DNA from: Desulfosarcinaceae bacterium
Lineage (GTDB): Bacteria > Desulfobacterota > Desulfobacteria > Desulfobacterales > Desulfosarcinaceae
Direction: 5' to 3'
NCBI GenBank assembly: GCA_030066015.1
Contig: JASJCL010000035.1
Coordinates: forward strand, 1 to 63,197
Length of the DNA stretch: 63,197 bases
Below, piece by piece: positions 1,684 to 24,839 of this stretch. The notes below the pieces were generated by a model that did not search any database, was not told where the DNA came from, and saw nothing but the letters and a program-made list of their open reading frames with translations. Position 1 is the first letter of the stretch. Each line of letters starts with the position of its first letter. A program made the translations under genes and the position numbers.

Positions 1684-2079
1684 CTACACCCCATCCGCCA
1701 CCACCGCATCGGCCTCCATCTCCACCAGCCAGGCCGGGTCGATGAAACGGCTCACCTCCACGAAGGTGCAGGCCGGGCGTATCTCGCCGAAGAATTCGCC
1801 ATGGGCCCGCCCGGCCTCCTTCCAGCGATCGATGTCGGTGAGCATGACGCGGGTGCGGATGATGTCCTCCCGGCGTCCGCCGGCGGCGACCACCGCCGCC
1901 AGGATGATCTCCAGGCAGCGCCGGGTTTGACCATGAAGGTCACCCGGGCAGGCGGTCTGACCGTCCTCGGCAATGGGCGCCGTCCCGGCCACCGCAACCA
2001 TGTGGCCGATTCGCACCGCCCGTGAGAAGCCGATCGGTTCCTCGTAGGGAGACCCCGATGAGATCTGGGTGCGCTTCAT
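1684..2079 (-). CDS. RidA/YjgF/UK114-family protein
   Basis: A 131-residue member of the RidA family, small trimeric cytosolic proteins that hydrolyse reactive enamines and imines released by amino-acid-metabolising enzymes. Recognisable features are the opening ISSGSPYE followed by GFSRAVRIG, AVAGTAP, and the late stretch RPACTFVEVSRFIDPAWLVEMEA. Its ATG overlaps the stop codon of the upstream lysine-oxoglutarate-reductase-like gene by 4 bases (ATGA), so the two are translationally coupled. It ends with TAG. An imine-producing amine or lysine pathway is a natural setting for this protein, but the actual substrate cannot be read from the sequence. Confidence 0.85.
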   Translation of the reverse strand: MKRTQISSGSPYEEPIGFSRAVRIGHMVAVAGTAPIAEDGQTACPGDLHGQTRRCLEIILAAVVAAGGRREDIIRTRVMLTDIDRWKEAGRAHGEFFGEIRPACTFVEVSRFIDPAWLVEMEADAVVADGV

Positions 2080-3413
2080 GCGGGCGCCTCCTTGCCGGCC
2101 GCATGGGCGTCCAGGTGTTCTTGGAGGTAGGCGTACTCCTGGGTGAGCTGCCCGTTATAGACAATGACGGCCTTGCGCACCTCGTGATTCAAGCCCGATT
2201 TTTCAAGGGGCTTGTCGAAGTTGGCTGTCAGGATATTGGGGACCAGCGGGGACAATTGATGGCTGAAAAAGGTCGAGCTGTCCAGGGGGAGTTCACAGGG
2301 CAGGTTATCCACCGCCAGAAGGACGATGCCGTCACCGGTGTGCCCGTCGGTCACCGCCTGGGTCAGGGGGTCCACCTGGTAGGCGGGCATGTCGCTGTCC
2401 GTGGAGCGCACATTGCACTCGACGCTGCCGTGGGTGTCGCAGGTGATGTCGGCGATGCCGGCCAGAAGTGATTTGGGCGACCTTTCGGCCTGCCGTTTGA
2501 GACCCTCCCAAGTGATGAATCGGGGGTAGCGGGCTTCCCAATAAATGGCGTTGATCAGAAGCCGGAAGTGGGCCAGGTAGGGATCGAAGCGGCTCTGGTA
2601 CAGATCGGGCTGGTCGAAGTACTCTTGCAGATCAAAGGCACCGCCGTCCGTGCGTTCCACCAGATCGGCCTCCTTGAAGACCGTGACGTAGAGACGTTTG
2701 GGATCGGCTGTGCCGTCTTTGGTCAGGGTCTCGACCTCATCGGGCGCCACCCGTTCGGTGGGCAGACAATCCAGAATCTGCTGAGCACCTTCAGACACGT
2801 TGCCGTAGCCCAAAACGCCAATGGTAAAGGGGGTCAGCTCGTCCGGGAAGCCCCTCTCGGCGATCTTGGCCCCCACCGCTTTGAGGTGCCGTTGGGCGTC
2901 GGCCACCGAGGTGTACTCATGGGCCCTGTTTATCTGTGACAGGGGCGTCGACACGCCTTTGGCGGCCCAGTGGGCGCCCATGAGGCTGAGAATGTCGATG
3001 GCCCCCGCATCGCCGGCGTAGCGGCCAAAATAGACCATGCGGCGCCCCTTCTCGTCGGAGATGCGTTCATAATCGATCAGGGTGGCGCCGCTGTCGATGA
3101 TCTTCCGCAGGAGGGGCATGCCGTGCTGCTGGCCCTTGATGGTGTGGGAGAAGAAGAGATAGGTCTTGCCGGCCTGGATCTTCTCCTCCGGAATCTCTTT
3201 GACCCCGAGAATCACCTCCCCAGGCGCCTCGTTGTGGCAGATTTGGGCCCCGGCCTCCAGGTAGGCTTGGGAGCTGAAGCAACGCTTCGCCGAGACCTGG
3301 ACATAGGCGCGGACATTGGTTTTCTCGCGAATCTTCTTGAGATCGGCCGGCACGAGTGCGGTGCGGCGCTCCCAGCGGTTCTTGTCCTCGGCGCGAATCA
3401 GCAACGTTTTCAT
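2076..3413 (-). CDS. Lysine-2-oxoglutarate reductase-like protein (LOR/SDH N-terminal family)
   Basis: A 445-residue protein resembling the lysine-ketoglutarate reductase half of the bifunctional AASS enzyme and the alanine dehydrogenase/PNT N-terminal fold. It opens with MKTLLIRAEDKNRWERRTAL, where the ERR-LVP stretch is the family hallmark; IGVLGYGNVSEGAQQ near residue 200 is the nucleotide-binding loop. In eukaryotes this activity joins lysine and 2-oxoglutarate to saccharopine. The partner saccharopine dehydrogenase-like gene lies 2 bases upstream. Here the eukaryotic fusion appears as two separate cistrons. Direction and exact substrate are inferred only. It overlaps the RidA gene by 4 bases. 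Confidence 0.75.
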   Translation of the reverse strand: MKTLLIRAEDKNRWERRTALVPADLKKIREKTNVRAYVQVSAKRCFSSQAYLEAGAQICHNEAPGEVILGVKEIPEEKIQAGKTYLFFSHTIKGQQHGMPLLRKIIDSGATLIDYERISDEKGRRMVYFGRYAGDAGAIDILSLMGAHWAAKGVSTPLSQINRAHEYTSVADAQRHLKAVGAKIAERGFPDELTPFTIGVLGYGNVSEGAQQILDCLPTERVAPDEVETLTKDGTADPKRLYVTVFKEADLVERTDGGAFDLQEYFDQPDLYQSRFDPYLAHFRLLINAIYWEARYPRFITWEGLKRQAERSPKSLLAGIADITCDTHGSVECNVRSTDSDMPAYQVDPLTQAVTDGHTGDGIVLLAVDNLPCELPLDSSTFFSHQLSPLVPNILTANFDKPLEKSGLNHEVRKAVIVYNGQLTQEYAYLQEHLDAHAAGKEAPA

Positions 3414-3415
3414 CG

Positions 3416-4774
3416 TTACACATCTCCCCAGTAGCTGCGTTCATCGGCGGAAAGTTCACTGCGGCGTTCGATGAAGCGAATATTTTTCTTCTCACACTCG
3501 GCCAGGATCGGGTCGTAGATCTGTGGATGAACCGGAATCTGTACACCAGTCAAATCGACCTTCCCAGTGGCCACTAGGCCGGCGGCGATGCCCACCGGAT
3601 ACCCCACCGTGCGCGACATGGAGGTGTCCCCCCCGGGGATGCCGGAATCGATGAGCGTGGACTGAATTCGCTGGCGGGGCTGTTCGGGGAAGAGGACCTC
3701 GAATTCGTGGTGCATCACCAGGAGATCCATCTCGCCTTCGTCGTAGACCAGCCGGCTCTTCAGGGTGTGGGCGAACATGTCGAAAACCGAAACCGTTCCC
3801 AGGTGAAGTCTGCGGTCCGACAAGAGGCCCAACCACTCCAGTTTCTTGAGGGTCAGGCTGTGTACCGGTATCTTCAAGTATGCGGCGATGGCCGTGCGCA
3901 GGTCATCCGCCGGACCGCAGGAAACGATATTGGCCAATACCTCGCGGGGCGTCACCTCGTCGAAGTCGAACTTCATTTTCTGGTTGAGCAACCCGAGCTT
4001 CTTAATGAAGTCCCAGGTCTCGCAGTAGCCCACATTGCGCAGAGTGCCGCGATACATCCCGGAGACCCCCGTCAGGCCGTACATACCGATGTACGGCAGG
4101 GCGTCGCGGTTGACATAGGCCTCAAACACACCAGCGCCGGGCACACTTTTTAGCCAGTAGTGCTCGAAGAGCTGATCGCCGGGCACCTCGATCACCTTGC
4201 CGTGCTCGAGGTAGCGGCCGTCATTCATGGCGGCCAGCATGGCACCCTCGGGGCTCCAGGAGAATTTGTAGCCCAAGGGGTTGTTGTTGCTCTCCAAAGC
4301 CGGCAAGCCGCCGCAGTAGGAGAAGAAGCTGTCCACGCGCCCGCCGTCGCTGTGAACCTGGTCGATAATCTGCATGGCCGACATGTGGTCTAGACCGGGA
4401 TCCACGCCTACTTCATTGAGGAATAGCAGCCCCTTGGCCTTTACGTCGGCGTGAATTGACCGCATCTCCTCCTTGACGTAGGAGGCGGTGACCAAGTGCT
4501 TGCGCAGCTCGAGACAGAGGCGGCCCACCCGGGGATGAAAACTCCAGGGCAGGAGGCTGACGACGATGTCGGCGTCGGCCACCAGGTTGTGGAGACGGGC
4601 GCTGTCGTTGACGTCCAGTTGAATGGCGATCCCCCGGCTGTGATCGCCCACGAGCTCCTGGGCCGGCTCCATCTGTTGATCGGCCACCAGAACGGCCACC
4701 TCCGGCAGATCGAGCAGGTAATGTACGGCGGGTCGGGCCACGAGGCCGGCCCCCAGAACGAGGATCTTTTTCAT
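3416..4774 (-). CDS. Saccharopine dehydrogenase-like protein
   Basis: A 452-residue saccharopine dehydrogenase-family protein (Sacchrp_dh_NADP plus C-terminal domain). The N-terminus MKKILVLGAGLVARP carries a GxGxxxxP dinucleotide loop, followed by ADIVVSLLPW and NEVGVDPGLDHMSAM, all typical of the glutamate-forming enzyme that splits saccharopine to aminoadipate semialdehyde and glutamate. It is directly followed by the lysine-oxoglutarate-reductase-like gene (2-base gap) and preceded by an MttB-family gene 15 bases away, so co-transcription is very likely. The pair could degrade lysine released by demethylation of a methylated lysine, or control lysine supply for Pyl synthesis; both are inference. 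Confidence 0.82.
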   Translation of the reverse strand: MKKILVLGAGLVARPAVHYLLDLPEVAVLVADQQMEPAQELVGDHSRGIAIQLDVNDSARLHNLVADADIVVSLLPWSFHPRVGRLCLELRKHLVTASYVKEEMRSIHADVKAKGLLFLNEVGVDPGLDHMSAMQIIDQVHSDGGRVDSFFSYCGGLPALESNNNPLGYKFSWSPEGAMLAAMNDGRYLEHGKVIEVPGDQLFEHYWLKSVPGAGVFEAYVNRDALPYIGMYGLTGVSGMYRGTLRNVGYCETWDFIKKLGLLNQKMKFDFDEVTPREVLANIVSCGPADDLRTAIAAYLKIPVHSLTLKKLEWLGLLSDRRLHLGTVSVFDMFAHTLKSRLVYDEGEMDLLVMHHEFEVLFPEQPRQRIQSTLIDSGIPGGDTSMSRTVGYPVGIAAGLVATGKVDLTGVQIPVHPQIYDPILAECEKKNIRFIERRSELSADERSYWGDV

Positions 4775-4789: not shown

Positions 4790-6226
4790 TTAGGACCCCT
4801 GTGCCGTTTCATAGGGGTGAATGAGGGTCTCGCCCCGGGCCATGATCTCGTCATGGTCCGACGGCGGCCGCAGTTCGACCATAAGATCGATGGTGTGCCT
4901 GCGCAGGTGGCCATCGGCAGAGGGGCCTTCCTCGGCCGCCCACTGCTCCAGCGTTTGGCTGGGCCACAGATCGGCGCTTTGCGCTTGGCGGAATCGCTCC
5001 AAGGTCAGCGGTGCCATGAGAAAATTGCCTGCTGGTCCGATGGTGTCGATCTGCTCCGTGGCGACATCGGTCGCTGCAAGGCTGAAACCGCCACTGAATT
5101 GGCGCGCCTGGCGGATCACCTGATCCGCATACACCACCACGGTGGGCGCGAAGGCCAGACTATCGAAAGTCCCCCCCACAAATGGGGCCATGCCCACCTT
5201 GCCCATGCAGGCGGTGAGGTGGTTCATCCAGAGGGTGCCGGCCAGCTGCAAATCGGCTCCCCAGCCGTTGACGCAGCCTGAGGTTCCTGAGTGGGGCAGG
5301 CCGTAATGGGCCATCATTTCGGCACACGCCAGATTGAGCAGCATGCTGTGTGGCGTGTAGACACTGGTCATGGCTTGCATGTCGAAACCGGCGGGCAGGC
5401 TGCCGGCAATGATGGGAGCGCCTGCCTTGACCAATTGGCTGAACACCACGCCGGCCAGCAGTTCGGCGTTCAGCAGGGCCAGCGTTCCACCGGGGCTGAT
5501 GGGTGTGGTCGCACCGCTCATGCCGTAGTTGTTATAGATCAATGGCAACCCGCGTTCGACGGCCATGACGGTCTTGCGGGTCGTCTCCCGGCCCAGCACC
5601 AGCGGAGAGATCGGATTGACATAGGGGATGACCCACGGCTTGCGGCTCAGCTCGCCGTGAAGGAATTCCAAGAGGTCGAGCGCCGCCGTAAACATGCGCT
5701 CGTCGCTGATTAAGAGCACCAATGGCTTGACGGTGTTGGCCGTCATGGTGAGGGTGGCCCAGAGGTCGGCGGTCTCGGTGGGCAGATCCTGAGCGATTCC
5801 CGGGGTGGAGAGCAGATCAAAGGCCGGCAGGTGATCGGCCAGCCGGCTGGCTGCGGCGACGTCCGCCAGGGTGAAGGGCCGCACTTGGTCGTCGGCCGGC
5901 TCCTGATAGTAGAGATTGGTGACCCCCACTCCAAAGCGGGTAATGTTGGAGCGCGTATCGCCGAGGTGGAAGCGCGGCGCCCCCTGGCGATCGTGGATGG
6001 AGACGCTGCCGGGGGCTTGTGCCAAGGCCCAGTTCACGACCTCGGCCGGAATATAGACGCGCCGCTCCCCATCCGCCACCCGACAACCGGCCCCGGCAAA
6101 CCGCCGGCGGGCATCCGGATCATCCACCCGCAGTCCGGTGTCCTCCAGGATGGCGAGGCTGAAACGGTGGACCTGATCCATCTGCTCGGGCCTCAGGACC
6201 GTCAGGGTGGGTTGCACCATCTCCAT
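4790..6226 (-). CDS. MttB-family methyltransferase, no pyrrolysine
   Basis: A 478-residue MttB-superfamily protein (COG5598) with an uninterrupted frame. Where Pyl aligns in MttB it has Cys (residue 318, in GTSGCVNGWGADLQ), judged by the conserved Asp-x-Gln seven residues later. Characterised members lacking Pyl act on quaternary amines such as glycine betaine (MtgB), proline betaine (MtpB) or carnitine (MtcB). I chose the ATG at 6226 because GGAGGG lies six bases upstream; an in-frame ATG at 6247 has no convincing ribosome site. It is the first gene of the minus-strand operon reaching to 59 and diverges from the pyl operon. The substrate is not identifiable from sequence. Confidence 0.85.
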   Translation of the reverse strand: MEMVQPTLTVLRPEQMDQVHRFSLAILEDTGLRVDDPDARRRFAGAGCRVADGERRVYIPAEVVNWALAQAPGSVSIHDRQGAPRFHLGDTRSNITRFGVGVTNLYYQEPADDQVRPFTLADVAAASRLADHLPAFDLLSTPGIAQDLPTETADLWATLTMTANTVKPLVLLISDERMFTAALDLLEFLHGELSRKPWVIPYVNPISPLVLGRETTRKTVMAVERGLPLIYNNYGMSGATTPISPGGTLALLNAELLAGVVFSQLVKAGAPIIAGSLPAGFDMQAMTSVYTPHSMLLNLACAEMMAHYGLPHSGTSGCVNGWGADLQLAGTLWMNHLTACMGKVGMAPFVGGTFDSLAFAPTVVVYADQVIRQARQFSGGFSLAATDVATEQIDTIGPAGNFLMAPLTLERFRQAQSADLWPSQTLEQWAAEEGPSADGHLRRHTIDLMVELRPPSDHDEIMARGETLIHPYETAQGS

Positions 6227-6303
6227 CGGGAGCCCTCCAAACCACATCCATTAAGCGCTCTTGCCAGGCCCACGCGGATTCGGCAGACCGATGACATTGT
6301 ATG

Positions 6304-6350
6304 TTGTCACTTACAGGACAACGCTTACCAGCGGGGCTTGTAAGTGTCAA
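6304..6350. repeat. Inverted repeat, possible operator for the pyl and MttB operons
   Basis: TTGTCACTTACA (6304-6315) and TGTAAGTGTCAA (6339-6350) are reverse complements at 11 of 12 positions, 23 bases apart. The right arm overlaps the minus-strand -35 candidate and lies just upstream of the pyl -10 candidate, as expected for a regulator binding site controlling both directions. The regulator is unknown. Confidence 0.5.
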
Positions 6351-6375
6351 TCAACTAATATATGAGGATCACAGT

Positions 6376-6408
6376 GCGCGGCGTGGGCGAGCGCCCCACG
6401 CCCTGCGC
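6376..6408 (+). other. Stable hairpin in the tRNA-Pyl leader
   Basis: GGCGTGGG (6380-6387) pairs with CCCACGCC (6395-6402) around a 7-base loop. The stem extends outward with GCGC pairs (6376-6379 with 6405-6408) across a 2-base bulge. It is directly followed by AAGGAGGTGA (6409-6418), complementary to the 16S rRNA 3' end, and three bases later by the tRNA. It may aid 5' processing or stop ribosome loading; no U-tract follows, so it is not a classic terminator. Confidence 0.55.
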
Positions 6409-6421
6409 AAGGAGGTGAAGC

Positions 6422-6495
6422 GGGGGGTGGATCGAGATGAGATCGCGTGGACTCTAAATCCACGTAGCTCGGTGCGACACCGGGACTCCCCGCCA
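6422..6495 (+). tRNA. pylT: tRNA-Pyl (anticodon CUA)
   Basis: Amber suppressor tRNA charged with pyrrolysine by PylS. It folds with the hallmarks of tRNA-Pyl. The acceptor stem is GGGGGGT (6422-6428) with ACTCCCC (6485-6491), discriminator G and encoded CCA (6493-6495). One base only (6429) lies between acceptor and D stem, and the D stem is GATC/GATC. The anticodon stem has six rather than five pairs (6446-6451 with 6459-6464) around loop CTCTAAA, anticodon CTA at 6454-6456. The variable loop is three bases (TAG), and the T arm CTCGG/CCGGG has loop TGCGACA without the usual TTC. It heads the pyl operon, 34 bases before pylSc. Confidence 0.96.
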
Positions 6496-6529
6496 TTTTT
6501 ATTGGCGCCGGAAGGAACGGCATGCGTCC

Positions 6530-7366
6530 ATGACGTCCTGGACCGATATTCAGCATCGCCGGCTGGTGGAGCTGGGGGCCGCGGAGGCGGTTCTCCAACA
6601 GGCATTCAGCGACGATGCGGCGCGCAACAACGCGTTCCAAAAACAGGTGACCGCCCTCACCCGTTTGGGGCGGGGACGACTGGCCCAGCTTCGGTCGACC
6701 CATCGTCGACCGGCCCTGTGCCGCCTGGAGCATCGCCTGACGGAGGCCCTCACCGGATTGGGCTTCGTTCAGGTGTCCACCCCCGTTCTGCTCTCGCGCG
6801 GACTGCTGGCGAAGATGGGCGTCACCACCGACCACCCGCTGAACAAGCAGATCTACTGGGTGGAACGGGACAAATGCCTGCGCCCCATGCTGGCCCCCCA
6901 CCTTTACTATGTCATGAAAGACCTGTTGCGCCTGTGGGAGAAGCCGGTGGCGATCTTCGAGATCGGACCCTGCTTTCGCCGGGAGAGCGAGGGCGCCCGC
7001 CACAGCAGTGAATTCACGATGCTCAACCTATGCGAATTTGGACTTCCCGAGGTGCAGCGCCGCCAGCGCATCGAAAACCTGGCGGACGTCATCATGGCGC
7101 AGGCCAAGATAACGGCCTATGCATTTGAAACCGAAACCTCCGCCGTATACGGCACCACCGTGGACGTGGTGGCCGCCGACGGCCTGGAACTCGGCTCCGG
7201 CGCTATGGGGCCCCACCCCCTGGATCGGGCCTGGAAGATCACCGATACCTGGGTGGGCATCGGCTTCGGCCTGGAGCGGCTGCTCATGGCCACCGAGGGC
7301 GGCAGCCATCTGTCGCGCCATGGCCGCAGCCTGGCGTATCTGGACGGGGTGCGGCTGAACATTTAG
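6530..7366 (+). CDS. pylSc: Pyrrolysyl-tRNA synthetase, catalytic domain (PylSc)
   Basis: The catalytic class II core of pyrrolysyl-tRNA synthetase as a separate 278-residue protein, the bacterial arrangement also seen in Desulfitobacterium; it ligates Pyl to tRNA-Pyl. Motifs: RPALCRLEHRLTEAL and LGFVQVSTPVL, KCLRPMLAPHLYYVMKDL (motif 2 region), FEIGPCFRRESEGARHSSEFTML, and GIGFGLERLLM (motif 3), ending SLAYLDGVRLNI. The stop codon is TAG (7364-7366); if read as Pyl the frame stays open for 51 more codons to TGA at 7520-7522, past the pylB start. A GGAAGGAA box is about 12 bases before the ATG, with a three-codon ATG frame at 6522 in between. Confidence 0.95.
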   Translation: MTSWTDIQHRRLVELGAAEAVLQQAFSDDAARNNAFQKQVTALTRLGRGRLAQLRSTHRRPALCRLEHRLTEALTGLGFVQVSTPVLLSRGLLAKMGVTTDHPLNKQIYWVERDKCLRPMLAPHLYYVMKDLLRLWEKPVAIFEIGPCFRRESEGARHSSEFTMLNLCEFGLPEVQRRQRIENLADVIMAQAKITAYAFETETSAVYGTTVDVVAADGLELGSGAMGPHPLDRAWKITDTWVGIGFGLERLLMATEGGSHLSRHGRSLAYLDGVRLNI

Positions 7367-7494
7367 GATCGCCAACGTGAGGCGAGCGTGTCGGCCGTTG
7401 TTCAAGCGATGGGGATCGAGTCCACCGCCCAAGCGCGCTGCCGGCATGCCAAAGATTGCCCCACGCCCAGTTACCGGACCGGGAAGAGAGAGCT

Positions 7495-8607
7495 GTGGAT
7501 CGATTTACCAGCGCCCAATTGAATACACTGCTGGCCAAGGCCGTCCAGGGGAGCGCCCCGACGCCCCATGATATCGAACGCCTTCTGCTGTTGACCGACC
7601 CGGATCAGGTCGCCGCCCTGATGCAGGCCGCCCGGCGGGTCCGCACCCGCCATTTCGGCCGGGAAGTATTTCTCTACGGTTTTCTCTACGCCAGCACACA
7701 CTGCCGCAACCACTGCCGCTTCTGCCTTTACCGCCGCGGCAATCCCGCCGCGCCGCGCTACCGCAAGAGCCAGACGGAGATGGTTGCGCTGGCCACGGCG
7801 CTGGCAGACAGCGGGGTCCACCTCATCGACCTGACCATGGGAGAGGATCCCGAGGTCTACGCCCCGGATGGCAAGGGGTTTGAAACGCTGCTGGAGACCA
7901 TGGACCGCATCCGCACCGCCACCGGACTGCCCCTGATGGCATCGGTGGGCGTGGTGCCGCCGGTGATACTGGAGGGCCTCGCCGAGCGGGGCATCGAGTG
8001 GTACGCCTGCTACCAGGAGACCCACTCCATCAGTGGCTATCACCGTCTGCGCAGCGGACAGGACTATGATGAACGATGGCGGAGCAAACTGCGCGCCGGC
8101 GAACTGGGCATGCTGGTGGAGGAGGGGATCCTCACCGGTGTGGGGGAGACCCCGCGGGACCTGGTGCGCTCACTAATGGCCATGCGGACAATGGCCGCCG
8201 ACCAGGTGCGCGCCATGACTTTCGTGCCCCAAACAGGCACCCCCATGGCCGGCTGGCGCCATCGCCCGCCATGGAGCGAGCTCAAGCTCATCGCGCTGAT
8301 GCGGTTGGTGATGCCGGATGCCCTCATCCCGGCCAGCCTCGATATCGACGGTCTCTCCGGCTTGGCGCAGCGCCTGGCGGCAGGGGCCAACGTGGTCACC
8401 TCCTTGGTCCCCCCGGGAGAGGGGCTGGCCGGCGTGGCCCAGAGCGAGCTGGACATCGAAGCGGGCAACCGCAGCGTATCCGGTATCCAGGAAACCTTGG
8501 CGACCTGCGGACTGCAGCCGGCGGCGGCGGAAGCGTACCTCGCCTGGGTCCGGGCCCGTCAGGAGATGAAATGCCGCGCCCAGCGGAGGGACCGATGCGC
8601 CTGTTAG
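7495..8607 (+). CDS. pylB: PylB, methylornithine synthase (radical SAM)
   Basis: First enzyme of Pyl biosynthesis: a radical SAM mutase converting L-lysine to (3R)-3-methyl-D-ornithine. The iron-sulfur motif CxxxCxxC is at residues 70-77 (CRNHCRFC) inside FLYASTHCRNHCRFCLYRR. I chose the GTG at 7495 (370 residues) because GGGAAGAGAG lies just upstream; an in-frame ATG at 7456 would add 13 residues with no clear ribosome site. The gene overlaps pylC by 13 bases and ends in TAG (8605-8607). Readthrough would add about 44 Trp- and Arg-rich residues that look non-coding, so this UAG probably just terminates. Confidence 0.94.
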   Translation: MDRFTSAQLNTLLAKAVQGSAPTPHDIERLLLLTDPDQVAALMQAARRVRTRHFGREVFLYGFLYASTHCRNHCRFCLYRRGNPAAPRYRKSQTEMVALATALADSGVHLIDLTMGEDPEVYAPDGKGFETLLETMDRIRTATGLPLMASVGVVPPVILEGLAERGIEWYACYQETHSISGYHRLRSGQDYDERWRSKLRAGELGMLVEEGILTGVGETPRDLVRSLMAMRTMAADQVRAMTFVPQTGTPMAGWRHRPPWSELKLIALMRLVMPDALIPASLDIDGLSGLAQRLAAGANVVTSLVPPGEGLAGVAQSELDIEAGNRSVSGIQETLATCGLQPAAAEAYLAWVRARQEMKCRAQRRDRCAC

Positions 8608-9791
8608 TGGTCGGCGGACGCCTCCAGGGAGTGGAGGCCGCGTACCTGGCTAAAAAAGCCGGCTTCTGGGTGCGGGTGGTGGACAAGGCGGCCATGGTGC
8701 CGGCCATGCACCTGGGAGACCATTTTATCCAGGTGGATGTGACCTCCCCCCAGGGGCTGGCCCTGGCGACGGAGGGGATCGACCTCATCCTGCCGGCCTT
8801 GGAGAACCCGGCCGTCTTGCAGGCCCTGGCCGAAAGCGCGCCTGAACTGGGGATCCCGCTGGCCTTCGATCTGGCCGCCCACAAGCTCAGCAGCTCCAAG
8901 CGGCGGTCGGACCAGCTTTTTGCCAGCCACCAGATCCCCGCCCCCGAGCCTTGGCCAGCGTGCGGCTACCCAGTGATGGTCAAGCCCGATCGGGGCAGCG
9001 GCAGCGAGGGGGTCCGCCTTCTGACCGAAGGAGAGCTCCTGGCAATCCAGATCGACGGGGGGTTTCCGCCCGAGGGAATGGTGGCCCAGCAATATCTCGA
9101 GGGCCCCTCCTATTCCGTGGAGGTGATCGGCGTGCCGGGCAACTACCACGTCATGCCGGCGACGGAGCTGGAGATGGATGCGGGGCACGACTGCAAGCGG
9201 GTATTGGCGCCGAGCGGTTTGGGGACGGATGCTGCGGATCGTCTGGCCGCCATCGGCCGTGCCTGCGCGGAGGCGATCCAGCTCACCGGGATCATGGACG
9301 TGGAGGTGATCCGCCACGAGGGCGTTTTCAAGGTTCTCGAAGTGGATGCCCGCCTGCCCAGCCAGACGCCCATAGCGGTCCTGCACAGCAGCGGCATCAA
9401 CCAAGTGGCACTGCTGGCAGCCCTTTTTCAGGGGGGGCAGGCTTCGGCCCATGAACCTCTCGTCAGCCAGGACGGGGTGATTCTGGAGCATATCGCGATT
9501 GCAGATGGGCACTTGCGGGTATTGGGCGAACACATCATGGCGGTGACGGAGGGCCTCCGTCACGAGACCGGTTTCTTTGGCGCCGACGAGGCCCTCACCA
9601 CTTACAGGCCCGGTGCCCCGTCCTGGGTGGCCACCTTGATCATCACCGCTGCGGACAGAGCGGCGGCGTGGGAGAAGCGATCGCAGGTGATGGCGAACCT
9701 CAAGCAGACCTTTGACTTGGTGGCCCTGGCGGCCCCCCGTCCCGATAGCGCCCGTTCAGGCGCCGGCCAGCGCGGGGGAGCGGTCCCATGA
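8595..9791 (+). CDS. pylC: PylC, 3-methylornithine-L-lysine ligase (ATP-grasp)
   Basis: Second step of Pyl synthesis: ATP-dependent joining of 3-methylornithine to the epsilon-amino group of a second lysine. The protein starts MRLLVVGGRLQGVEAAYLAK, very close to characterised PylC, and has ATP-grasp features (VMVKPDRGSGSEGV, PEGMVAQQYLEGPSYSVEV, VLEVDARLPSQTP). At 398 residues it has a short extra Ser/Gly/Arg tail compared with archaeal PylC (about 360). ATG 8595 follows GGAGGG; an upstream in-frame ATG at 8571 with AGGAG is the alternative. It overlaps pylB at the 5' end and pylD by 4 bases (ATGA) at the 3' end. Confidence 0.94.
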   Translation: MRLLVVGGRLQGVEAAYLAKKAGFWVRVVDKAAMVPAMHLGDHFIQVDVTSPQGLALATEGIDLILPALENPAVLQALAESAPELGIPLAFDLAAHKLSSSKRRSDQLFASHQIPAPEPWPACGYPVMVKPDRGSGSEGVRLLTEGELLAIQIDGGFPPEGMVAQQYLEGPSYSVEVIGVPGNYHVMPATELEMDAGHDCKRVLAPSGLGTDAADRLAAIGRACAEAIQLTGIMDVEVIRHEGVFKVLEVDARLPSQTPIAVLHSSGINQVALLAALFQGGQASAHEPLVSQDGVILEHIAIADGHLRVLGEHIMAVTEGLRHETGFFGADEALTTYRPGAPSWVATLIITAADRAAAWEKRSQVMANLKQTFDLVALAAPRPDSARSGAGQRGGAVP

Positions 9792-10669
9792 CCCGGTTGA
9801 CCCGTGCCGACCTGCGGAACCTGGAGGGCTCCCTGGCCGCCTACGAGCACTACCTCAACGATGCGACCGGCATCGATCTGGCAGGCCTCGCGCTGGAGGC
9901 GTCCGGGCTGCCTGCGGATACGGCCTGTCGCAACGGACTGGCCGATCTTCGACTGGCCGTGATCCCGGTCACCATCGGACTGGGCATCATCGGTGGCTTT
10001 TCCCAGAGCGTCGCCGCCATCCTCAATCACCTCGGCTGTCACAGCTACGTTACAAAGAGCTGTGATGTGGCCGGAATCACCGAGGCGTTGGCCCGGGGGG
10101 CGGCGGCCCTCTTCCTGTCCGACGATAGCGACTTTGTGGCCCTGGACCCCGAGCGTCGCGTGATCGTCCACAACACCGCGGCCACGGCCCGCGGATTCGT
10201 GGCGGGACTGGCGCGGATGGCGGGTGGTGTGGTGGGGCGGGAGGTCCTGGTGATCGGATGCGGAGCGCTGGGGGGAGCCGCCGCAGAGGCGCTGCTGACA
10301 CGGGGCGCCCATTTGGTGCTGACAGACCACGATCCAGCCGCCAGCGCAGCCCTGGCCGCCTCCCTAAGGGCCAAATTTGGGCAAGACGCACAGATACGCC
10401 TCTGCCCGCACACCCGGCTAGATGCGGTTGACCTCATTTTCGATGCCAGCAATACGGGCGATCATATCGATGTGGAGATGATGGGGCCGGCGACCTGTGT
10501 AGCCGCTCCCGGTATGCCCTGCGGGGTAACCGCAGCCGGTCGCCGACGACTGGGCATCCGCATGCTCCACGATCCCCTGCAGATCGGTGTGGCCACCATG
10601 GCGGGTCAGATTTACGCAGCCCAGTTATGCGCTTCCTGCATGCCGGCGGAGGGAACGCTTCATGGCTAA
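9788..10669 (+). CDS. pylD: PylD, pyrrolysine synthase (dehydrogenase)
   Basis: Last step of Pyl synthesis: NAD-dependent oxidation of L-lysine-N6-3R-methyl-D-ornithine, followed by ring closure to the pyrroline. The 293-residue protein has the PylD signatures IPVTIGLGIIGGFSQSVAAI, HLGCHSYVTKSCDVAGI and a Rossmann loop VLVIGCGALGGAAAEALL near residue 155. It overlaps pylC by 4 bases (ATGA) and pylSn by 8 bases, so the operon is translationally coupled throughout. The stop is TAA, unlike pylSc and pylB. Confidence 0.94.
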   Translation: MTRLTRADLRNLEGSLAAYEHYLNDATGIDLAGLALEASGLPADTACRNGLADLRLAVIPVTIGLGIIGGFSQSVAAILNHLGCHSYVTKSCDVAGITEALARGAAALFLSDDSDFVALDPERRVIVHNTAATARGFVAGLARMAGGVVGREVLVIGCGALGGAAAEALLTRGAHLVLTDHDPAASAALAASLRAKFGQDAQIRLCPHTRLDAVDLIFDASNTGDHIDVEMMGPATCVAAPGMPCGVTAAGRRRLGIRMLHDPLQIGVATMAGQIYAAQLCASCMPAEGTLHG

Positions 10670-11009
10670 GCAGCGCAAACCGGCTGCCAAACGCTACTAC
10701 CGCAAACGGGTGGCGCTCCTGCGCCTCATCGATAAAATCAAGCTCTGGCCCTCCCGGCGGGGCATCCTCCACGGTATCCGTACCATCGAGCGCCTGGGTG
10801 CGCAGGCCCGGGTGACCACTCATTGCAACAAGCAATTTCTCGTCAACGATTCGCGCAACAGCCGGGCGGCGCGCTGGCTGCGCAACAAGTGGTTTCAGGG
10901 AATCTGCCCGCAGTGCGGGGTGCCCGATTGGAAACTGGAGAAGTTCAGTGCCACCCGCTTCCGGCGCCACCACGGCTCCGATCTGCTCAAACCGGGTGAT
11001 CCGAGCTGA
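10662..11009 (+). CDS. pylSn: Pyrrolysyl-tRNA synthetase, N-terminal tRNA-binding domain (PylSn)
   Basis: A 115-residue stand-alone version of the PylS N-terminal domain, which binds tRNA-Pyl tightly and cooperates with PylSc. Diagnostic segments are KLWPSRRGILHGI, TTHCNKQFLVNDSRNSRAAR and WLRNKWFQGICPQCGVPDWK; the His/Cys residues match the zinc site of this domain. It is very basic, as expected for a tRNA binder. It is last in the order tRNA-Pyl, pylSc, pylB, pylC, pylD, pylSn, the standard bacterial layout. ATG 10662 overlaps the pylD stop; the gene ends in TGA. Confidence 0.95.
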   Translation: MAKQRKPAAKRYYRKRVALLRLIDKIKLWPSRRGILHGIRTIERLGAQARVTTHCNKQFLVNDSRNSRAARWLRNKWFQGICPQCGVPDWKLEKFSATRFRRHHGSDLLKPGDPS

Positions 11010-11416
11010 TGGTCCTTCCGCTTGCCCGCGCCCCTTCCTGGGGGTTGGGATCATCCGTCATCGGGGCAAGCGATGAAGCACCGTCGGTTTTGGACCGACC
11101 ATAAATTCGATATCCTGCGCTTTTCACCATCGCCTCAAGGCGCCTCCGGCCCTTTGGACCCTCCTCTTTAAACAGAAAAACCGCGCAAACCGCTGCGATT
11201 AAATTTTATATGTTTTCTTCTCACCATTCGAGGTTGACATGGACGCTCGTCCCTCAGTATAGACCTCTCTATCGAGACCGAATTATGGTCTAACCAAAAA
11301 GAGCGGCGCCACGCTTTGGCGCGGAGACCCGGCATTTTGGGGAGAGATCCCGCTATCGTGAAGCGCGGCCCGCGGGAACTGCAGCCCGCAACTGGGTTGG
11401 TGAGGGGAGAGGCGCG
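11010..11416. promoter_or_regulatory. Intergenic region after the pyl operon with GntR-type operators
   Basis: No gene is seen in these 407 bases. GCTTGCCC (11020-11027) and GGGCAAGC (11064-11071) form an 8-bp inverted repeat enclosing a smaller CCCC/GGGG hairpin, possibly the end of the pyl transcript, though no T-tract follows. GTCGGT/ACCGAC (11083-11099) is a second hairpin. TGGTCTAACCA (11286-11296) fits the TGGTNNNACCA operator of FadR/PdhR-type regulators, and TGGACCGACCA (11091-11101) is one base off it. The FCD regulator gene starts 120 bases downstream. Confidence 0.5.
11286..11296. promoter_or_regulatory. Candidate FadR/GntR operator TGGTCTAACCA
   Basis: A perfect match to TGGTNNNACCA, the half-site arrangement of FadR/PdhR/LldR-type GntR regulators, 120 bases before a gene for that kind of regulator. 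Probably an autoregulatory site that also controls the downstream MttB and oxidase genes. Inferred from motif and position only. Confidence 0.5.
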
Positions 11417-12250
11417 GTGGCAACCTTCAAGCCCGCCGATGATAAAAACGTCACCCAGGATGTCATCCGGCAGATCGAAAACGCCATCATCTGCGGGGAA
11501 CTGACCGAGGGGGCCAAACTCTCGCCGGAGAGGGAGCTGCAGAACGCGTTCCGGGTCTCCCGCACCACCATTCGGGAAGCGCTGCGGGTTCTGGCGCAAA
11601 AGGGTCTCATCACCATCCGCAAAGGCAAGGGCGGCGGCTCCTTTGTCGAACCCAATAGCGGGCTCAGGTTCGGCGAGAGCCTGGACCTGATGATCCGCCT
11701 GGGCCAGATCAGCTTGCGACAGCTATTCGAGTTCCGCAGCCATATCGAGGTCCTCGCTTTCGAGTCGGCCATCTACAAGGCGACCTCGGCGGACATCGAC
11801 CGACTCGATCAGATCCTCGAAAAAATGAAGTGGACCTCGCAACACTATGGCGGTGATCCGCAGGCCTTTTTCGAGATCGAAAAAACCCTGCACCGGGCCA
11901 TGGTCGACCTATCGGGAAACCCCCTCTACGGACTGGTGCTGAACGCCATCACGGCGAGCACATGGAAGGTGATGCGTTTTTTGCCCAACTCGGAAGTGGA
12001 GATGGTCGCTGCCCTGCAGGACTGGCGCGATATCCTCGACGCCATGCGGCAGGGCGACATCCATACGGCAACCGCGGTGATTCGGACCCATCAGCTAAAC
12101 TACCGCAGGGTGTATGAAGCCTATTTGCACGAACGGGACTTGACTGATCGGACCCTTGCCCAGGCAGTGGCGACATGTGAACCGGCATCGAAGCGGCCAA
12201 ATTTTGATTCGAGCATTATACCACCAGAACACCAACGCAGAGGGGGATGA
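11417..12250 (+). CDS. GntR-family (FadR/FCD) transcriptional regulator
   Basis: A 277-residue DNA-binding regulator. The N-terminal winged helix-turn-helix spans about residues 10-80, with LSPERELQNAFRVSRTTIRE and ALRVLAQKGLITIRKGKGG as the recognition region and wing; the C-terminal FCD ligand domain follows from about residue 95. It starts at GTG 11417 behind GGGGAGAGG. Its stop overlaps the ATG of the next MttB-family gene (ATGA), so regulator, methyltransferase and amine oxidase form one operon. The ligand is probably the substrate or product of that pathway. TGGTNNNACCA-like sites upstream suggest autoregulation. Confidence 0.88.
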   Translation: MATFKPADDKNVTQDVIRQIENAIICGELTEGAKLSPERELQNAFRVSRTTIREALRVLAQKGLITIRKGKGGGSFVEPNSGLRFGESLDLMIRLGQISLRQLFEFRSHIEVLAFESAIYKATSADIDRLDQILEKMKWTSQHYGGDPQAFFEIEKTLHRAMVDLSGNPLYGLVLNAITASTWKVMRFLPNSEVEMVAALQDWRDILDAMRQGDIHTATAVIRTHQLNYRRVYEAYLHERDLTDRTLAQAVATCEPASKRPNFDSSIIPPEHQRRGG

Positions 12251-13719
12251 TGCTACAATCGGACCAGACCCAATCCCGTTCGCTCCGCATGCGGATCTTC
12301 AGCGACGACCAGATCTGGGAGATCCGGCAGGCGGCGTTCGACATCGTCGAAAAGGTCGGCTTCGTCTGTCCCCACAAGGCGGCCCAGCAGATGCTGGCCG
12401 CCGCCGGGGCCTGGGTGAAGGGGGACCGGATCCGGCTCCCCCGCCACATCGCCGAGGGGTGCCTGGCGACGACCCCCAAGGGATGGATCCTATATGACCG
12501 CGACGGCCGCCGGGCCATGGAGGTGGAGGGACGCAAGAGCCATTACGGCACCGCCACCGCCAGCCCCCACACCCGGGATGTGTTCACGGGAGAGATCCGG
12601 ACCACCGAACTGGTCGACATCGCCAATGGGGCCAAGGTGGCCGATGCCTGCGGCAACATCGATTTCGTCATGCCCATGGGGTCCTCTCAGGACGTGCCGC
12701 CCAATACCGCGGACGTCAACGAGTTCCCCACCGTGGTGGCCAACACCGCCAAGCCCATGGTCTTCATCGGGTATACGCCCCTGGGGTGCGAGTATGTTTA
12801 CGAGATGGCGGCGGTGGTCGCCGGGGGGATGGAGGCTCTGAGGCAAAAACCCTTCCTGATCGCCTATCCCGAGGGCATCGCCCCCCTTTTCTACCCCGAG
12901 GACACCATCGACCGCATCTTCGTCTCGGCCGATCGCTGCATGCCCCAGCTCCCCGGTTCCACGGTCCAGGCCGGCGCCACCGGTCCGGTGACCCTCGCGG
13001 GAATGACGGCCCAGATGACGGCGGAGGCCATCATCCACATCGTCGTCGCCCAACTGCGCCAGCCCGGGTGCCCCGTGGCAATGAGCGCCAACGCCGCCGT
13101 GCTCAACATGACCTCGGCGCTCAACACCATGGGGGCGCCCGAACTGAGTCTGGCCCAGTGCGCCCAGGCGGAAGTGGCCCAATCCTTCAACCTGCCCACC
13201 TGGGGGCTGGCCGGCGCCACCGACGCGAAAACCCTGGACGCCCAGGCCGGTTTGGAGGCCGCCTTTTCCATCCTGAGCCAGGGCATGGGCGGCCTCAATC
13301 TGATTCACGACGTGGGCTACATGGCCGCCGGCATGATCTGCAGCCTCGAACAGCTGGTGATGGGCAACGAGATCATCGGTATGGCCAAACGCTTCATCAA
13401 CGGCATCACGGTCAACCGCGAGACGCTGGCGCGGGAGGTGATCGAGGCGGTGGGACCGCGGGGCCATTTTCTGCAGCAGCGCCACACCATGACCCACTTT
13501 AAAAAGGAGCTGTGGCGGCCCCAATTGCTGGACCAGAGCGGCATCGAGACCTGGACCCAGGCGGGACAACCAAGCCTGCAAAACCGCGCCCGCGAAAGGA
13601 CCATCGCCCTATTGGAATCCCATACCCCCAAGGGGCTTCCAGACAAGATCACGACCGAACTGGAGCGTCTCAGGCGGGCGGCGCAAAAAGAGATTCTGGC
13701 CAAACAGGAAAAAGCGTAA
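12247..13719 (+). CDS. MttB-family methyltransferase, no pyrrolysine
   Basis: A 490-residue MttB-superfamily protein with an open frame throughout. At the Pyl-equivalent position it has Ala (residue 324, GLAGATDAKTLDAQ), with the conserved Asp-Ala-Gln seven residues on. The rest is typical: MRIFSDDQIWEIRQAAFDIV at the N-terminus, GATGPVTLAGMTAQM, and a final helical segment. It is coupled to the FCD regulator upstream and followed 30 bases later by a FAD amine oxidase-like gene. The combination suggests stepwise demethylation: a quaternary amine by this protein, then an N-methylglycine-like product by the oxidase. The substrate is unproven. Confidence 0.87.
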   Translation: MMLQSDQTQSRSLRMRIFSDDQIWEIRQAAFDIVEKVGFVCPHKAAQQMLAAAGAWVKGDRIRLPRHIAEGCLATTPKGWILYDRDGRRAMEVEGRKSHYGTATASPHTRDVFTGEIRTTELVDIANGAKVADACGNIDFVMPMGSSQDVPPNTADVNEFPTVVANTAKPMVFIGYTPLGCEYVYEMAAVVAGGMEALRQKPFLIAYPEGIAPLFYPEDTIDRIFVSADRCMPQLPGSTVQAGATGPVTLAGMTAQMTAEAIIHIVVAQLRQPGCPVAMSANAAVLNMTSALNTMGAPELSLAQCAQAEVAQSFNLPTWGLAGATDAKTLDAQAGLEAAFSILSQGMGGLNLIHDVGYMAAGMICSLEQLVMGNEIIGMAKRFINGITVNRETLAREVIEAVGPRGHFLQQRHTMTHFKKELWRPQLLDQSGIETWTQAGQPSLQNRARERTIALLESHTPKGLPDKITTELERLRRAAQKEILAKQEKA

Positions 13720-13749
13720 GGGCTTCAGTCCATCCAAAAGGAGCGGCAA

Positions 13750-15063
13750 GTGGGTATGACCCAACCGCAATATGACGCCATCGTGATCGGCGCCGGCATC
13801 ATCGGCTGCTGCATCGCCTACGAGCTGGCCAAGCGCGGCCGCCACTGTCTGGTGGTGGACAAACTGGCCGGCAGCGGACTCGGCTCGACGGCCGCCAGCT
13901 GCGCCATCATTCGCCTGCACTACTCCACGCCCCAGGGAGTGGCCCTGGCCAGGGAGGGATATTACTACTGGCTGGATTGGAAGCGGTACCTCAAGACGCC
14001 GGATCCCTCCGGGATGGCGTACTATAAAAACACCGGCAATCTGATCTTCAAGAGCGAGGTCAACCACAACCTCGTGAACGTGAAAGCGGCCCTGGAAGAG
14101 ATGGGCATCGGCTACCGGGACCTGGCGCCGGAGGAGATCCCCCAATTTCTCCCCAACCCCGATCTGCGCGCCTACCACCCCCAGAAGCGGTTGGCCGATC
14201 CGGACTTTGGCACGCCCACCGGCGGCCGAGTGCCCGGCGCCATCTACGTGCCCGAGTCCGGCTATATCAGCGATCCCAAGCAGTCCACCCACAACGTGGA
14301 GATCGCCGCGCGTGCCGCGGGAGCAACCTTTTGCTTCAATGCCGAGGTGGCGGAAATTCTACAGGCGAAGGGCCGGGCGGCCGGCATCCGGCTTGCCGGC
14401 GGGGAGGCGATCGCAGCGCCGGTGGTGGTCAATGTCAGCGGTCCCCACTCCCATAAGATCAATCGAATGGCCGGGGTGGCGGAGAAGATGAGGATCAAGA
14501 CCCGCGCCCTACGGGTAGAGGTGGTCCATGTGGAAAGTCCGGCTGGGGTGAACTGGGAGAAGGACGGGGTCATGCTGTCGGACAGCGACACCGGCATCTA
14601 CGCCCGGCCGGAGGTGGGCAACCACTGGCTCATCGGCAGCGAAGAGCCCGCCTGCGACGCCCTCGAATACGTTGACCCCGATGACTATAACCACAACTTT
14701 ACCGCCCAGTCACGGGCGCAGGTCCTGCGGGCCGGCATGCGCATCCCCGACCTGCCCATTCCCAACCAGCCCCAGGGCGTCGTGGACCTCTACGACCTCA
14801 GCGACGACTGGTACCCCATCTACGACAAGAGCGATCTACCCGGCTTTTACATGGCGGTGGGCACCAGCGGCAACCAGTACAAAAACGCGCCCGTGGTGGG
14901 CGCCTTCATGGCGGAACTGATCGATTATTGCGAGCGCGGTGGCGACCATGACGAACAGCCGCTGCAGTATCGCATGACATATCTGAAGCGGTCCCTGGAC
15001 ATCGGCTTCTTCAGCCGAAACCGCGAGATCAACCGCGCGTCCAGTTTTTCGGTCATCGGGTAG
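13750..15063 (+). CDS. FAD-dependent amine oxidoreductase (DAO family; sarcosine/dimethylglycine oxidase-like)
   Basis: A 437-residue DadA/sarcosine oxidase-like flavoprotein. The N-terminal FAD-binding motif VIGAGIIGCCIAYELAKRG follows MGMTQPQYDAI; later GNLIF, VNVSGPHSHKINRMAG and AVGTSGNQYKNAPVVG are typical of the DAO fold. Such enzymes oxidise N-methyl or alpha-amino groups of sarcosine, dimethylglycine or D-amino acids. The GTG at 13750 has AAAAGGAG six bases upstream, better placed than the ATG at 13756. It belongs to the regulator-MttB operon and ends with TAG. In an anaerobe it would more likely act as a dehydrogenase than an oxygen-using oxidase. Confidence 0.8.
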   Translation: MGMTQPQYDAIVIGAGIIGCCIAYELAKRGRHCLVVDKLAGSGLGSTAASCAIIRLHYSTPQGVALAREGYYYWLDWKRYLKTPDPSGMAYYKNTGNLIFKSEVNHNLVNVKAALEEMGIGYRDLAPEEIPQFLPNPDLRAYHPQKRLADPDFGTPTGGRVPGAIYVPESGYISDPKQSTHNVEIAARAAGATFCFNAEVAEILQAKGRAAGIRLAGGEAIAAPVVVNVSGPHSHKINRMAGVAEKMRIKTRALRVEVVHVESPAGVNWEKDGVMLSDSDTGIYARPEVGNHWLIGSEEPACDALEYVDPDDYNHNFTAQSRAQVLRAGMRIPDLPIPNQPQGVVDLYDLSDDWYPIYDKSDLPGFYMAVGTSGNQYKNAPVVGAFMAELIDYCERGGDHDEQPLQYRMTYLKRSLDIGFFSRNREINRASSFSVIG

Positions 15064-17645: not shown

Positions 17646-18827
17646 TCAGGGTGATTCAACGGGTGCCAGAAAGGCCTCTGCCAAATGGGTCCAGAAACCG
17701 GCGCCGATGGGCAGTATGTCGTCGTTGAAATCAAAGGCCGGGTGATGGAGGGGCTTGGGATCGGGGGATGACTGGGTGCCGATGAAGAAATAACAGCCCG
17801 GACAGACCTGAAGCATATAGGAGAAGTCTTCACTCCCCATGAAGGGGCGTGCCAGATCGATCACCTTGTCGGCACCGGCAAAGGCCACGGCCTGGTCGCG
17901 CACGAAGGCGGTTTCGGCCTTGTGGTTGACGGTGGCGTCGTAGCTGCGGCGGTGGTCTACCGTTGCCCGCATCCCATAGCTTTGCGCCTGGCCTGTGGCG
18001 ATCTCGCTGATCCGCTTCGCGAGATACTCACGGATCTCCGGGTCGAAGGAGCGGATGCTGAGGACCAATTCGGCAGTATCGGGAATGATATTGCTGGCCG
18101 AACCGGCATGAAACGACCCCACCGTGACCACGGCCGGCTCGAAGGGCTTGATGTTGCGCGAGACGATGCTTTGGAGGGCCATCACGATGCTGGCCCCAGC
18201 AAGGACGGGGTCGGCCGTATCCTCCGGCGAGGCGCCGTGGCCGCCCCGGCCGTGGACCGTGATCTTGGCCTCATCCACCGCCGCCATGATGGGGCCTTCG
18301 CGAAGGGCAAGATGTCCCATGGGAAGATTGGGGGCGTTGTGGAGCGCAAAGACCGCGTCGCAGGGGAACAGCTGGAAGAGCCCCTCCGCGACCATGGACT
18401 TGGCCCCGCCGAAATTCTCCTCGGCCGGCTGGAAGATCAGATGGACGGTCCCATCGAAACGCCCCCGCTCGGCGATGGCCGCAGCCGCTCCCAGAAGCAT
18501 GGCCATGTGCCCGTCATGGCCGCAGGCATGCATTTGGCCGGGATTCTGACTGGCATAGGCAAGACCCGTCCCCTCCTCCACCGGCAGCCCGTCCATATCG
18601 GCCCGCAGTCCGATGGACCGCTGAGAATGCCCCTTGCGCAGGCTGCCAACCACGCCGGTCGTCGCCAGACCGCGGTGCACGGTATACCCCAGTGCCGTCA
18701 AGCGCGCGGCAAGAAAATCGGCCGTCGCGGTCTCTTTGAAACCCAATTCGGGCATTTGGTGAAGGGCGTGACGCAGGCGCTCCAGCTCGGAGCGGTTGAG
18801 ACGGATCTCGTTGGCAGGCTTCGGCAT
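17646..18827 (-). CDS. M20-family metal-dependent amidohydrolase
   Basis: A 393-residue M20D peptidase/aminoacylase-family protein (HipO/AbgB-like), cytoplasmic, hydrolysing N-acyl amino acids or similar amides with two metal ions. Motifs: LRADMDGLPVEEGTGL and ACGHDGHMAMLLGAA (metal ligands), QPAEENFGGAK, and the dimerisation lid GRGGHGASPEDTADPV. The ATG at 18827 gives the usual family length. It is last in the ABC transporter operon, 32 bases after a permease gene, so it probably processes the imported compound, for example an acylated or conjugated amine. Confidence 0.87.
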   Translation of the reverse strand: MPKPANEIRLNRSELERLRHALHQMPELGFKETATADFLAARLTALGYTVHRGLATTGVVGSLRKGHSQRSIGLRADMDGLPVEEGTGLAYASQNPGQMHACGHDGHMAMLLGAAAAIAERGRFDGTVHLIFQPAEENFGGAKSMVAEGLFQLFPCDAVFALHNAPNLPMGHLALREGPIMAAVDEAKITVHGRGGHGASPEDTADPVLAGASIVMALQSIVSRNIKPFEPAVVTVGSFHAGSASNIIPDTAELVLSIRSFDPEIREYLAKRISEIATGQAQSYGMRATVDHRRSYDATVNHKAETAFVRDQAVAFAGADKVIDLARPFMGSEDFSYMLQVCPGCYFFIGTQSSPDPKPLHHPAFDFNDDILPIGAGFWTHLAEAFLAPVESP

Positions 18828-18859
18828 TGCAGCGCCCCTCGTCGTTGGCCGCCGGGTGG

Positions 18860-19630: not shown

Positions 19631-19633
19631 GGT

Positions 19634-20344: not shown

Positions 20345-20434
20345 AATTTCAGATGGCCCGTCAGCGTCAGGGGTGCATCGATTGGATGTCTGGATGGTGG
20401 GGGCTGATCAACAGCCCCCAGAACCAATGGCGGT

Positions 20435-21211: not shown

Positions 21212-21298
21212 GTCAATCTCCTTTGCTTCCTCTGTAATGGGGTTAGGTTCGTCTGTACCTGCATCGCGGCGCCAAGGGAGCGTGCCAGCGGAGCGCCG

Positions 21299-23022: not shown

Positions 23023-23189
23023 TCAAAATACCCGTCTCCATCCCGGTTGGCGTTGGCTTTGGATCGTTCGGCCTCCCCTATATCACAGGATCGTGGGGCG
23101 GCGGAAATCGATCTCCCCAGGCGTTCGGCTGCCGGAAAGGATCGGGGATGCGCCAAGCGCCTTACGGTGTCGGGGACGATCGCCCGCCA

Positions 23190-24647: not shown

Positions 24648-24708
24648 CGTGGCGAAGGGGTTTTGCTGGATGATCGATACAACAGGTCGGCTGGGTCCTT
24701 CACCAATA

Positions 24709-24718: not shown

Positions 24719-24743
24719 TTATTGGTTATAATTTTTGTACTCA

Positions 24744-24771: not shown

Positions 24772-24839
24772 TAATTATCTCAATGGGTTAGCCCTGCCGG
24801 CGGGATATGGGCGGCGGGCTGCAAAGACCGAAATCGGTA

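Follow-up and report, generated by a model that had tools for sequence, protein, structure and literature searches.

A probable complete pyrrolysine operon in a Desulfosarcinaceae bacterium and the methyltransferase genes that may use it

The pyrrolysine operon

We analysed a stretch of 63,197 nucleotides (the window, contig C86) from the draft genome of a Desulfosarcinaceae bacterium, which comprises 5.73 Mb in 155 contigs. On its forward strand, positions 6422 to 11009 hold the tRNA gene pylT followed by pylSc, pylB, pylC, pylD and pylSn. With a probability of roughly nine in ten, we read this segment as a complete bacterial operon for pyrrolysine (Pyl), with six TAG-bearing methyltransferase genes of the same genome as its predicted users.

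The tRNA gene (6422-6495) was found with ARAGORN and its stems were parsed directly, G-T pairs being counted as paired. Its product of 74 nucleotides has the anticodon CTA, an acceptor stem with 7/7 pairs, a D stem with 4/4, an anticodon stem with 6/6 and a T stem with 5/5; a single base links the acceptor and D stems, the variable loop has three bases (TAG), the discriminator base is G and the CCA end is encoded. An earlier note on this DNA had described just such a tRNA (CTA anticodon, anticodon stem of six pairs, one-base linker, three-base variable loop), and both approaches agree with it. The proteins were assigned with NCBIfam models, each of which has a curated cut-off. PylSc, the catalytic subunit of pyrrolysyl-tRNA synthetase (6530-7366), scores 322 bits with TIGR02367 (cut-off 178) and its nearest relative in the PDB is 3dsq (E 5e-92); PylB, the radical SAM methylornithine synthase (7495-8607, from a GTG start near 7495 that we chose), reaches 447 bits with TIGR03910 (cut-off 348; 3t7v, E 4e-77). 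Both genes stop at TAG. They are followed by pylC, for 3-methylornithine-lysine ligase (8595-9791; TIGR03909, 382 bits against 248; 4ffl, E 1e-43), pylD, for 3-methylornithyl-lysine dehydrogenase (9788-10669; TIGR03911, 200 against 150; 4j43, E 1e-22), and pylSn, for the small tRNA-binding subunit of the synthetase (10662-11009; TIGR03912, 124 against 51; 5ud5, E 3e-10). Thus 5/5 proteins exceed their cut-offs, and their nearest PDB relatives are the expected enzymes.

The gene ends and reading frames of the operon were checked and all frames are intact. The residue-level inspection covered PylSc and PylB: by eye, PylSc retains class II motifs 2 (FRRE) and 3 (GIGFGLER), and PylB retains the CX3CX2C motif as CRNHCRFC. 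None of the catalytic residues in these motifs is lost, a loss that the earlier note had named as telling against the operon. Its claim of a split synthetase within a full set was borne out, PylSc and PylSn being separate and PylB, PylC and PylD present; PylSn occurs once in the whole genome. With the gene set complete and TAG-bearing users in the same genome, the further claim that Pyl could be both made and inserted at UAG is well supported as a prediction. The protein genes had also been called overlapping, which is right for pylB/pylC (13 bases), pylC/pylD (4 bases) and pylD/pylSn (8 bases) but not for pylSc and pylB, between which there is a gap of 128 bases.

Pyl operons are rare across bacteria at large, as had been stated, but the statement does not extend to the host's own class, where PylSc exceeds its cut-off in 53 of the 389 genomes that made up our comparison sample (G-numbers denote individual genomes and f-numbers families). 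All four same-family genomes with a Pyl system (G110, G158, G285 and G293) keep the order pylT-Sc-B-C-D-Sn. Among named assemblies, those whose PylSc shows 59-60% identity come from Deltaproteobacteria, Desulfohalobiaceae, Desulfobacterales and Desulfobacteraceae. Many genomes of family f12 depart from the host's gene order: at most of the loci L066-L090, with the exception of L069, L072 and L074, pylSc follows pylD, and pylSn is usually found upstream.

Two loci of the sample differ in other ways. L080 has two tRNA-Pyl genes near a single pyl locus, and G030, which has a pyl operon, also contains a weak PylSc-family match (30.8 bits; C42, 33663-33854) with one in-frame TAG, which may represent either an additional Pyl gene or a pseudogene.

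The divergent operon and the methyltransferase genes

Next to pylT, on the reverse strand, lies a divergent set of genes. The first, MttB-like A (4790-6247; PF06253, 183 bits), encodes a methyltransferase of the MttB superfamily without Pyl. It is followed by genes for a saccharopine dehydrogenase (SDH) of the glutamate-forming type (3416-4774; PF16653/PF03435; PDB 1e5l, E 3e-81), a lysine-ketoglutarate reductase (LKR; 2076-3413; PF05222/PF01262) and a RidA-like imine/enamine deaminase (1684-2079; PF01042), the last without a match in the relatives' clusters examined. LKR and SDH match the chains of human AASS (E 1e-77, with 8dda, and E 1e-75, respectively), and both AASS-type parts are present at full length. 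The next gene, MttB(Pyl) (59-1537), has an in-frame TAG at 556-554; read through this codon it scores 724 bits with TIGR02369, and it has a PYLIS_3 match.

Contig C86 ends 58 bases past MttB(Pyl). The first 86 bases of another contig, C81, match this end with 3 mismatches, and C81 continues with a TAG-bearing MtbB gene and then a gene for a corrinoid protein (TIGR02370, over the cut-off). Since the contig ends overlap and the order MttB(Pyl)-MtbB(Pyl)-corrinoid protein is that of G110 and G293, the operon most likely continues across the two contigs and, in full, comprises MttB-like A, SDH, LKR, RidA, MttB(Pyl), MtbB(Pyl) and the corrinoid protein.

Across the host genome, six methyltransferase genes, four of MttB and two of MtbB, carry one in-frame TAG each. 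The MttB family occupies 26 places, one of them too short to span the Pyl column, and in the four with a TAG this codon is at the Pyl column in 4/4. Both MtbB places have their TAG within the DGL-O motif, as in relatives, and both proteins exceed the dimethylamine cut-off (525 and 433 bits). No MtmB was found in the genome. Apart from MttB(Pyl) of the divergent operon, the window holds two of the six genes on the forward strand: a second, divergent MttB(Pyl) at 24881-26449 (TAG at 25958-25960; TIGR02369, 535 bits against a cut-off of 525; PYLIS_3 match; start uncertain; TAG stop at 26447-26449) and an MtbB(Pyl) at 26567-27970 (TAG at 27629-27631; TIGR02368, 433 bits for 26597-27967; PYLIS_2 match). 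The PYLIS matches, obtained with Rfam, were not counted as independent evidence of an RNA element, because they lie on conserved coding sequence and TAG-free MttB homologues pass the PYLIS_3 cut-off as well. A TGA and a TAA inside two MttB homologues were considered as recoded codons and rejected, both being at the ends of the matches.

The MttB(Pyl) of the divergent operon belongs to a distinct clade. According to the alignment of 66 Pyl-containing trimethylamine methyltransferases described in PMC9842639, Gly110 and Tyr364 of MttB are both 100% conserved. Our protein retains the Pyl site and the equivalents of Met249 and Tyr364, and it has Ser at the position of Gly110, as does its clade (10 distinct genes; tree support 100/99), against Gly in 12/12 other Pyl-MttB rows. 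Gly-type Pyl-MttBs, including the second MttB(Pyl) of the window, exist elsewhere in the host genome.

Replacement at the Pyl position itself was seen in two MttB homologues of the sample, L047 (10927-12372) and L095 (11811-13256), which have Ala there, group within the Pyl-MttB clade (98/95 with L102) and come with a retained pyl operon; a loss of Pyl from the enzyme is possible in these cases.

Linkage of lysine genes, methyltransferases and pyl genes

All four same-family relatives with a pyl operon (4/4) have SDH and LKR next to it. Of these, G110 and G293 possess an intact MttB-like A, G158 retains a remnant of the gene and G285 lacks it. In the host, G110, G293 and G325, LKR and SDH are flanked by MttB-like A on one side and MttB(Pyl) on the other, all four genes on the same strand. 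Over the class, an SDH match of at least about 59% identity was found in 19 genomes (two of the matches partial), of which 11 have PylSc, compared with 42 of the 370 others (Fisher p 4e-6). In 8 of the 11 genomes with PylSc, the same stretch contains SDH together with MttB-like A (in G158 only its remnant), the Ser-type MttB or both, versus none of the eight without PylSc (p 0.002), two of which have the SDH gene on short contigs of 5.7 and 10.7 kb. These statistics take no account of common ancestry, and one family contributes five of the 11 genomes; the linkage as such was seen in families f1, f4, f12 and f66. SDH is apart from both methyltransferases in the three other genomes with PylSc (G018, G109 and G382), and in G344, which lacks PylSc, a different MttB homologue is nearby.

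MttB-like A, counted at E 1e-90, occurs in 44/389 genomes of the class, and 36 of the 44 also have PylSc over the cut-off; two of the remaining eight (G337 and G353) have a partial PylSc match. Five of these eight genomes without PylSc over the cut-off nevertheless have a Ser-type MttB with its TAG (G099, G221, G266, G353 and G359; L260, L261, L263, L265 and L282), which may reflect incomplete draft assemblies or a loss of the pyl genes.

The surroundings of MttB-like A were surveyed in 47 copies or remnants (46 matches and the G158 remnant), many of them close to contig ends. A TAG-bearing Ser-type MttB is present in 27/47 of these stretches, the host's included; the set was gathered through MttB-like A, so that the frequency of solitary Ser-type MttBs cannot be derived from it. 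Among the 27 clusters, a polar amino-acid ABC transporter is encoded in 20, LKR and SDH in five (the host, G110, G293, G325 and G150), a protein resembling dimethylglycine dehydrogenase in 15 and MtbB in eight; the last two never occur together, and four clusters have neither, one of these being the host's, whose MtbB is on C81. The TAG was seen in 7/8 clustered MtbBs, and the eighth, in G325, is cut by the contig end. One of the 15 dehydrogenase-like proteins, that of G213, was tested against the PDB and gave a match with E 2e-126; a fragment 85% identical to it lies at a contig edge in G285, beside MttB(Pyl), LKR and SDH. The transporter's binding protein in G110 matches best a Lys/Arg/Orn-binding subfamily, below the cut-off of that model; the host genome encodes a 67% match to this protein on a different contig.

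Substrate of the pyrrolysine enzymes

Genes, reading frames, TAG positions and gene linkage are direct observations; expression, insertion of Pyl and substrate are predicted from them. By the pathway of biosynthesis and charging stated in section 9 of PMC8318568, PylB, PylC and PylD would make Pyl from two lysines and PylSc with the separate PylSn would charge tRNA-Pyl, which would then read UAG in a few mRNAs and place Pyl in at least six corrinoid-dependent methyltransferases.

Tentatively, and at somewhat less than even odds, we propose that the divergent operon is the main user of Pyl and demethylates an N-methylated lysine step by step. MttB-like A would remove the first methyl group, from the quaternary amine, the Ser-type MttB(Pyl) the second, from the tertiary amine, and MtbB(Pyl) the third, from the secondary amine, a task that the dimethylglycine-dehydrogenase-like protein would perform in other lineages; the freed lysine would enter the saccharopine pathway through LKR and SDH. 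With the same reserve, the substrate of the Pyl enzymes in these Desulfobacteria may be a methylated amino acid, N6-trimethyllysine (laminine) being the likeliest candidate. The proposal is made because the quaternary, tertiary and secondary states of one nitrogen would each suit one of the three methyltransferases, because in other lineages the enzyme of the third step is replaced by one from the dimethylglycine dehydrogenase family, known members of which use N-methyl amino acids as substrates, and because the transporter belongs to the polar amino-acid class and the end product would be lysine if LKR and SDH act like their relatives. Seaweeds, Laminaria above all, are reported to contain free N6-trimethyllysine (PMC3890275).

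Growth on methylamines, which the earlier note took for granted, is one reading among others of the neighbouring genes, and it stands level with methylated lysine. The enzymes would then convert only plain methylamines (trimethylamine to dimethylamine to methylamine), and LKR and SDH would belong to ordinary lysine catabolism or to lysine balance; Pyl consumes two lysines, and the relatives' transporter would supply lysine for its synthesis. Several observations weigh against methylated lysine, the first two also in favour of methylamines: MttB(Pyl), at 724 bits, is over the cut-off for trimethylamine methyltransferases; 22/27 Ser-type clusters lack LKR and SDH in the stretch; G158 and G285 keep LKR, SDH and the pyl operon with MttB-like A reduced to a remnant or absent; the Ser-type MttB stands alone in G285, G313 and G341, and in the last two MttB-like A has no match at E 1e-90 anywhere in the genome. 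Methylamines are further favoured by the MtbB scores, by the retained equivalents of Met249 and Tyr364, by the lack of MtmB in the genome, so that methylamine would be an end product, and by section 9 of PMC8318568, where the same kind of locus is read as trimethylamine use and a Lys/Arg/Orn-binding protein is suggested to aid Pyl synthesis. They leave less well explained why LKR and SDH should lie between MttB-like A and MttB(Pyl) in four genomes, why SDH orthologues accompany these methyltransferases in 8/11 genomes with PylSc and in 0/8 without, why a dimethylglycine-dehydrogenase-like gene should replace MtbB in 15/27 clusters, and why Ser should stand for Gly110 in a genome that has Gly-type Pyl-MttBs elsewhere.

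The same replacement of MtbB would suit the degradation of another amino-acid betaine, such as glycine betaine via dimethylglycine to sarcosine, with LKR and SDH as a lineage-specific addition, and in PMC8318568 the MttB without Pyl from a comparable locus is called a putative glycine betaine methyltransferase. We regard this as unlikely, given the polar amino-acid type of the transporter, the Lys/Arg/Orn subfamily that the G110 binding protein matches best (under the cut-off), and the linkage of LKR and SDH to the methyltransferases in four families.

UAG as stop codon and as predicted pyrrolysine codon

As a point against the Pyl operon itself, TAG terminates 7 of the 37 coding sequences of the window whose stop codons were tallied (4 of the 41 listed were left out as mis-delimited), pylSc and pylB included; as TAG is an ordinary stop in these genes, UAG is ambiguous in this organism. 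A promoter scan of 6150-11450 gave no sigma-70-like site, a result of little information, and a terminator scan of the same interval gave two candidate sites, both on the opposite strand, where shuffled sequences average 3.1. A decayed or silent operon, with TAG-bearing methyltransferases that are truncated pseudogenes, would be in keeping with TAG serving as a normal stop in the genome; it is nonetheless very improbable, since the frames are intact, the motifs are retained, 6/6 genes have a single internal TAG at the expected site, and the four same-family relatives conserve the gene order at protein identities of 43-75%. That the TAG of pylSc (7364-7366) is read through by Pyl-tRNA to give a regulated longer synthetase is hardly credible: 51 further sense codons follow in frame, but the four closest relatives stop at TGA, so that the TAG is not conserved, and the tails behind TAG-ended pylSc genes elsewhere are mostly short and, by eye, show no relation to one another.

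After the TAG of pylB (8605-8607), 44 sense codons precede the next TAA or TGA, within pylC in another frame.

Relation to known systems and significance

The operon is not new in kind: it is one more complete system of a known type. Like the Pyl system of Desulfitobacterium hafniense, from which we take 3dsq and 2zni to come and whose order is presumably pylSc-B-C-D-pylSn, it has a split synthetase, and the best PDB match of its PylSc is 3dsq; it differs in sequence divergence and in adjoining a methyltransferase operon with lysine-degrading genes. LKR and SDH resemble human AASS and differ from it as two separate genes within a methyltransferase operon.

The organism has a tRNA for selenocysteine (Sec; 73.4 bits, cut-off 47), and this tRNA suggests that it belongs with the Deltaproteobacteria using both Pyl and Sec (Kivenson et al. 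2021, PMC8318568), with which it shares the full Pyl set; the named relatives of its PylSc are Deltaproteobacterial as well. The locus described in that study resembles those of our relatives in combining a Pyl-MttB, a non-Pyl MttB, a polar amino-acid transporter and a regulator. It is read there as trimethylamine use, whereas our operon includes LKR, SDH and MtbB(Pyl); the word saccharopine does not occur in the main text of PMC8318568. The MttB of Methanosarcina (7XCL/7XCM; PMC9842639) matches our MttB(Pyl) over residues 7-479 of 492 (E 3e-115) and shares the Pyl site, Met249 and Tyr364; its Gly110 is Ser in our clade.

The literature was searched among openly licensed papers of PubMed Central. 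Trimethyllysine together with MttB gave no paper, nor did pyrrolysine with dimethylglycine dehydrogenase and trimethylamine methyltransferase; pyrrolysine with saccharopine gave only a Cordyceps metabolite profile and a review of peptidomimetics, to judge from their titles and the opening of the abstracts. As far as this literature tells, three features are new: the linkage with LKR and SDH, the clade of Ser-type MttBs, which frequently has a non-Pyl partner, and the replacement of MtbB by a dimethylglycine-dehydrogenase-like protein.

With this operon, the complete Pyl systems of bacteria increase by one, as do the pairs of split synthetase and tRNA. If the Ser-type Pyl-MttB does act on methylated lysine, the natural role of Pyl would be wider than methylamine use and the 22nd amino acid would gain a substrate class beyond methylamines; the annotation "trimethylamine methyltransferase" would be wrong for this clade in some thirty genomes of the sample, and a candidate route for the anaerobic breakdown of methylated lysines would be at hand.

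Other observations in the window

The frame of the second MttB(Pyl) remains open past its TAG stop (26447) into MtbB (24881-27970), and UAG read as Pyl throughout would yield one MttB-MtbB chain of 1029 residues, possibly by chance. These two genes close a possible second set at 17646-27970 that begins with an M20 peptidase, an amino-acid ABC transporter, a GntR regulator and a very divergent non-Pyl MttB homologue, and that may serve another pathway for methylated compounds. Finally, at 12247-15063 a non-Pyl MttB homologue adjoins a DAO-type oxidoreductase, a pairing that recurs on other contigs of the host and in G344 (L142, L149 and L195).

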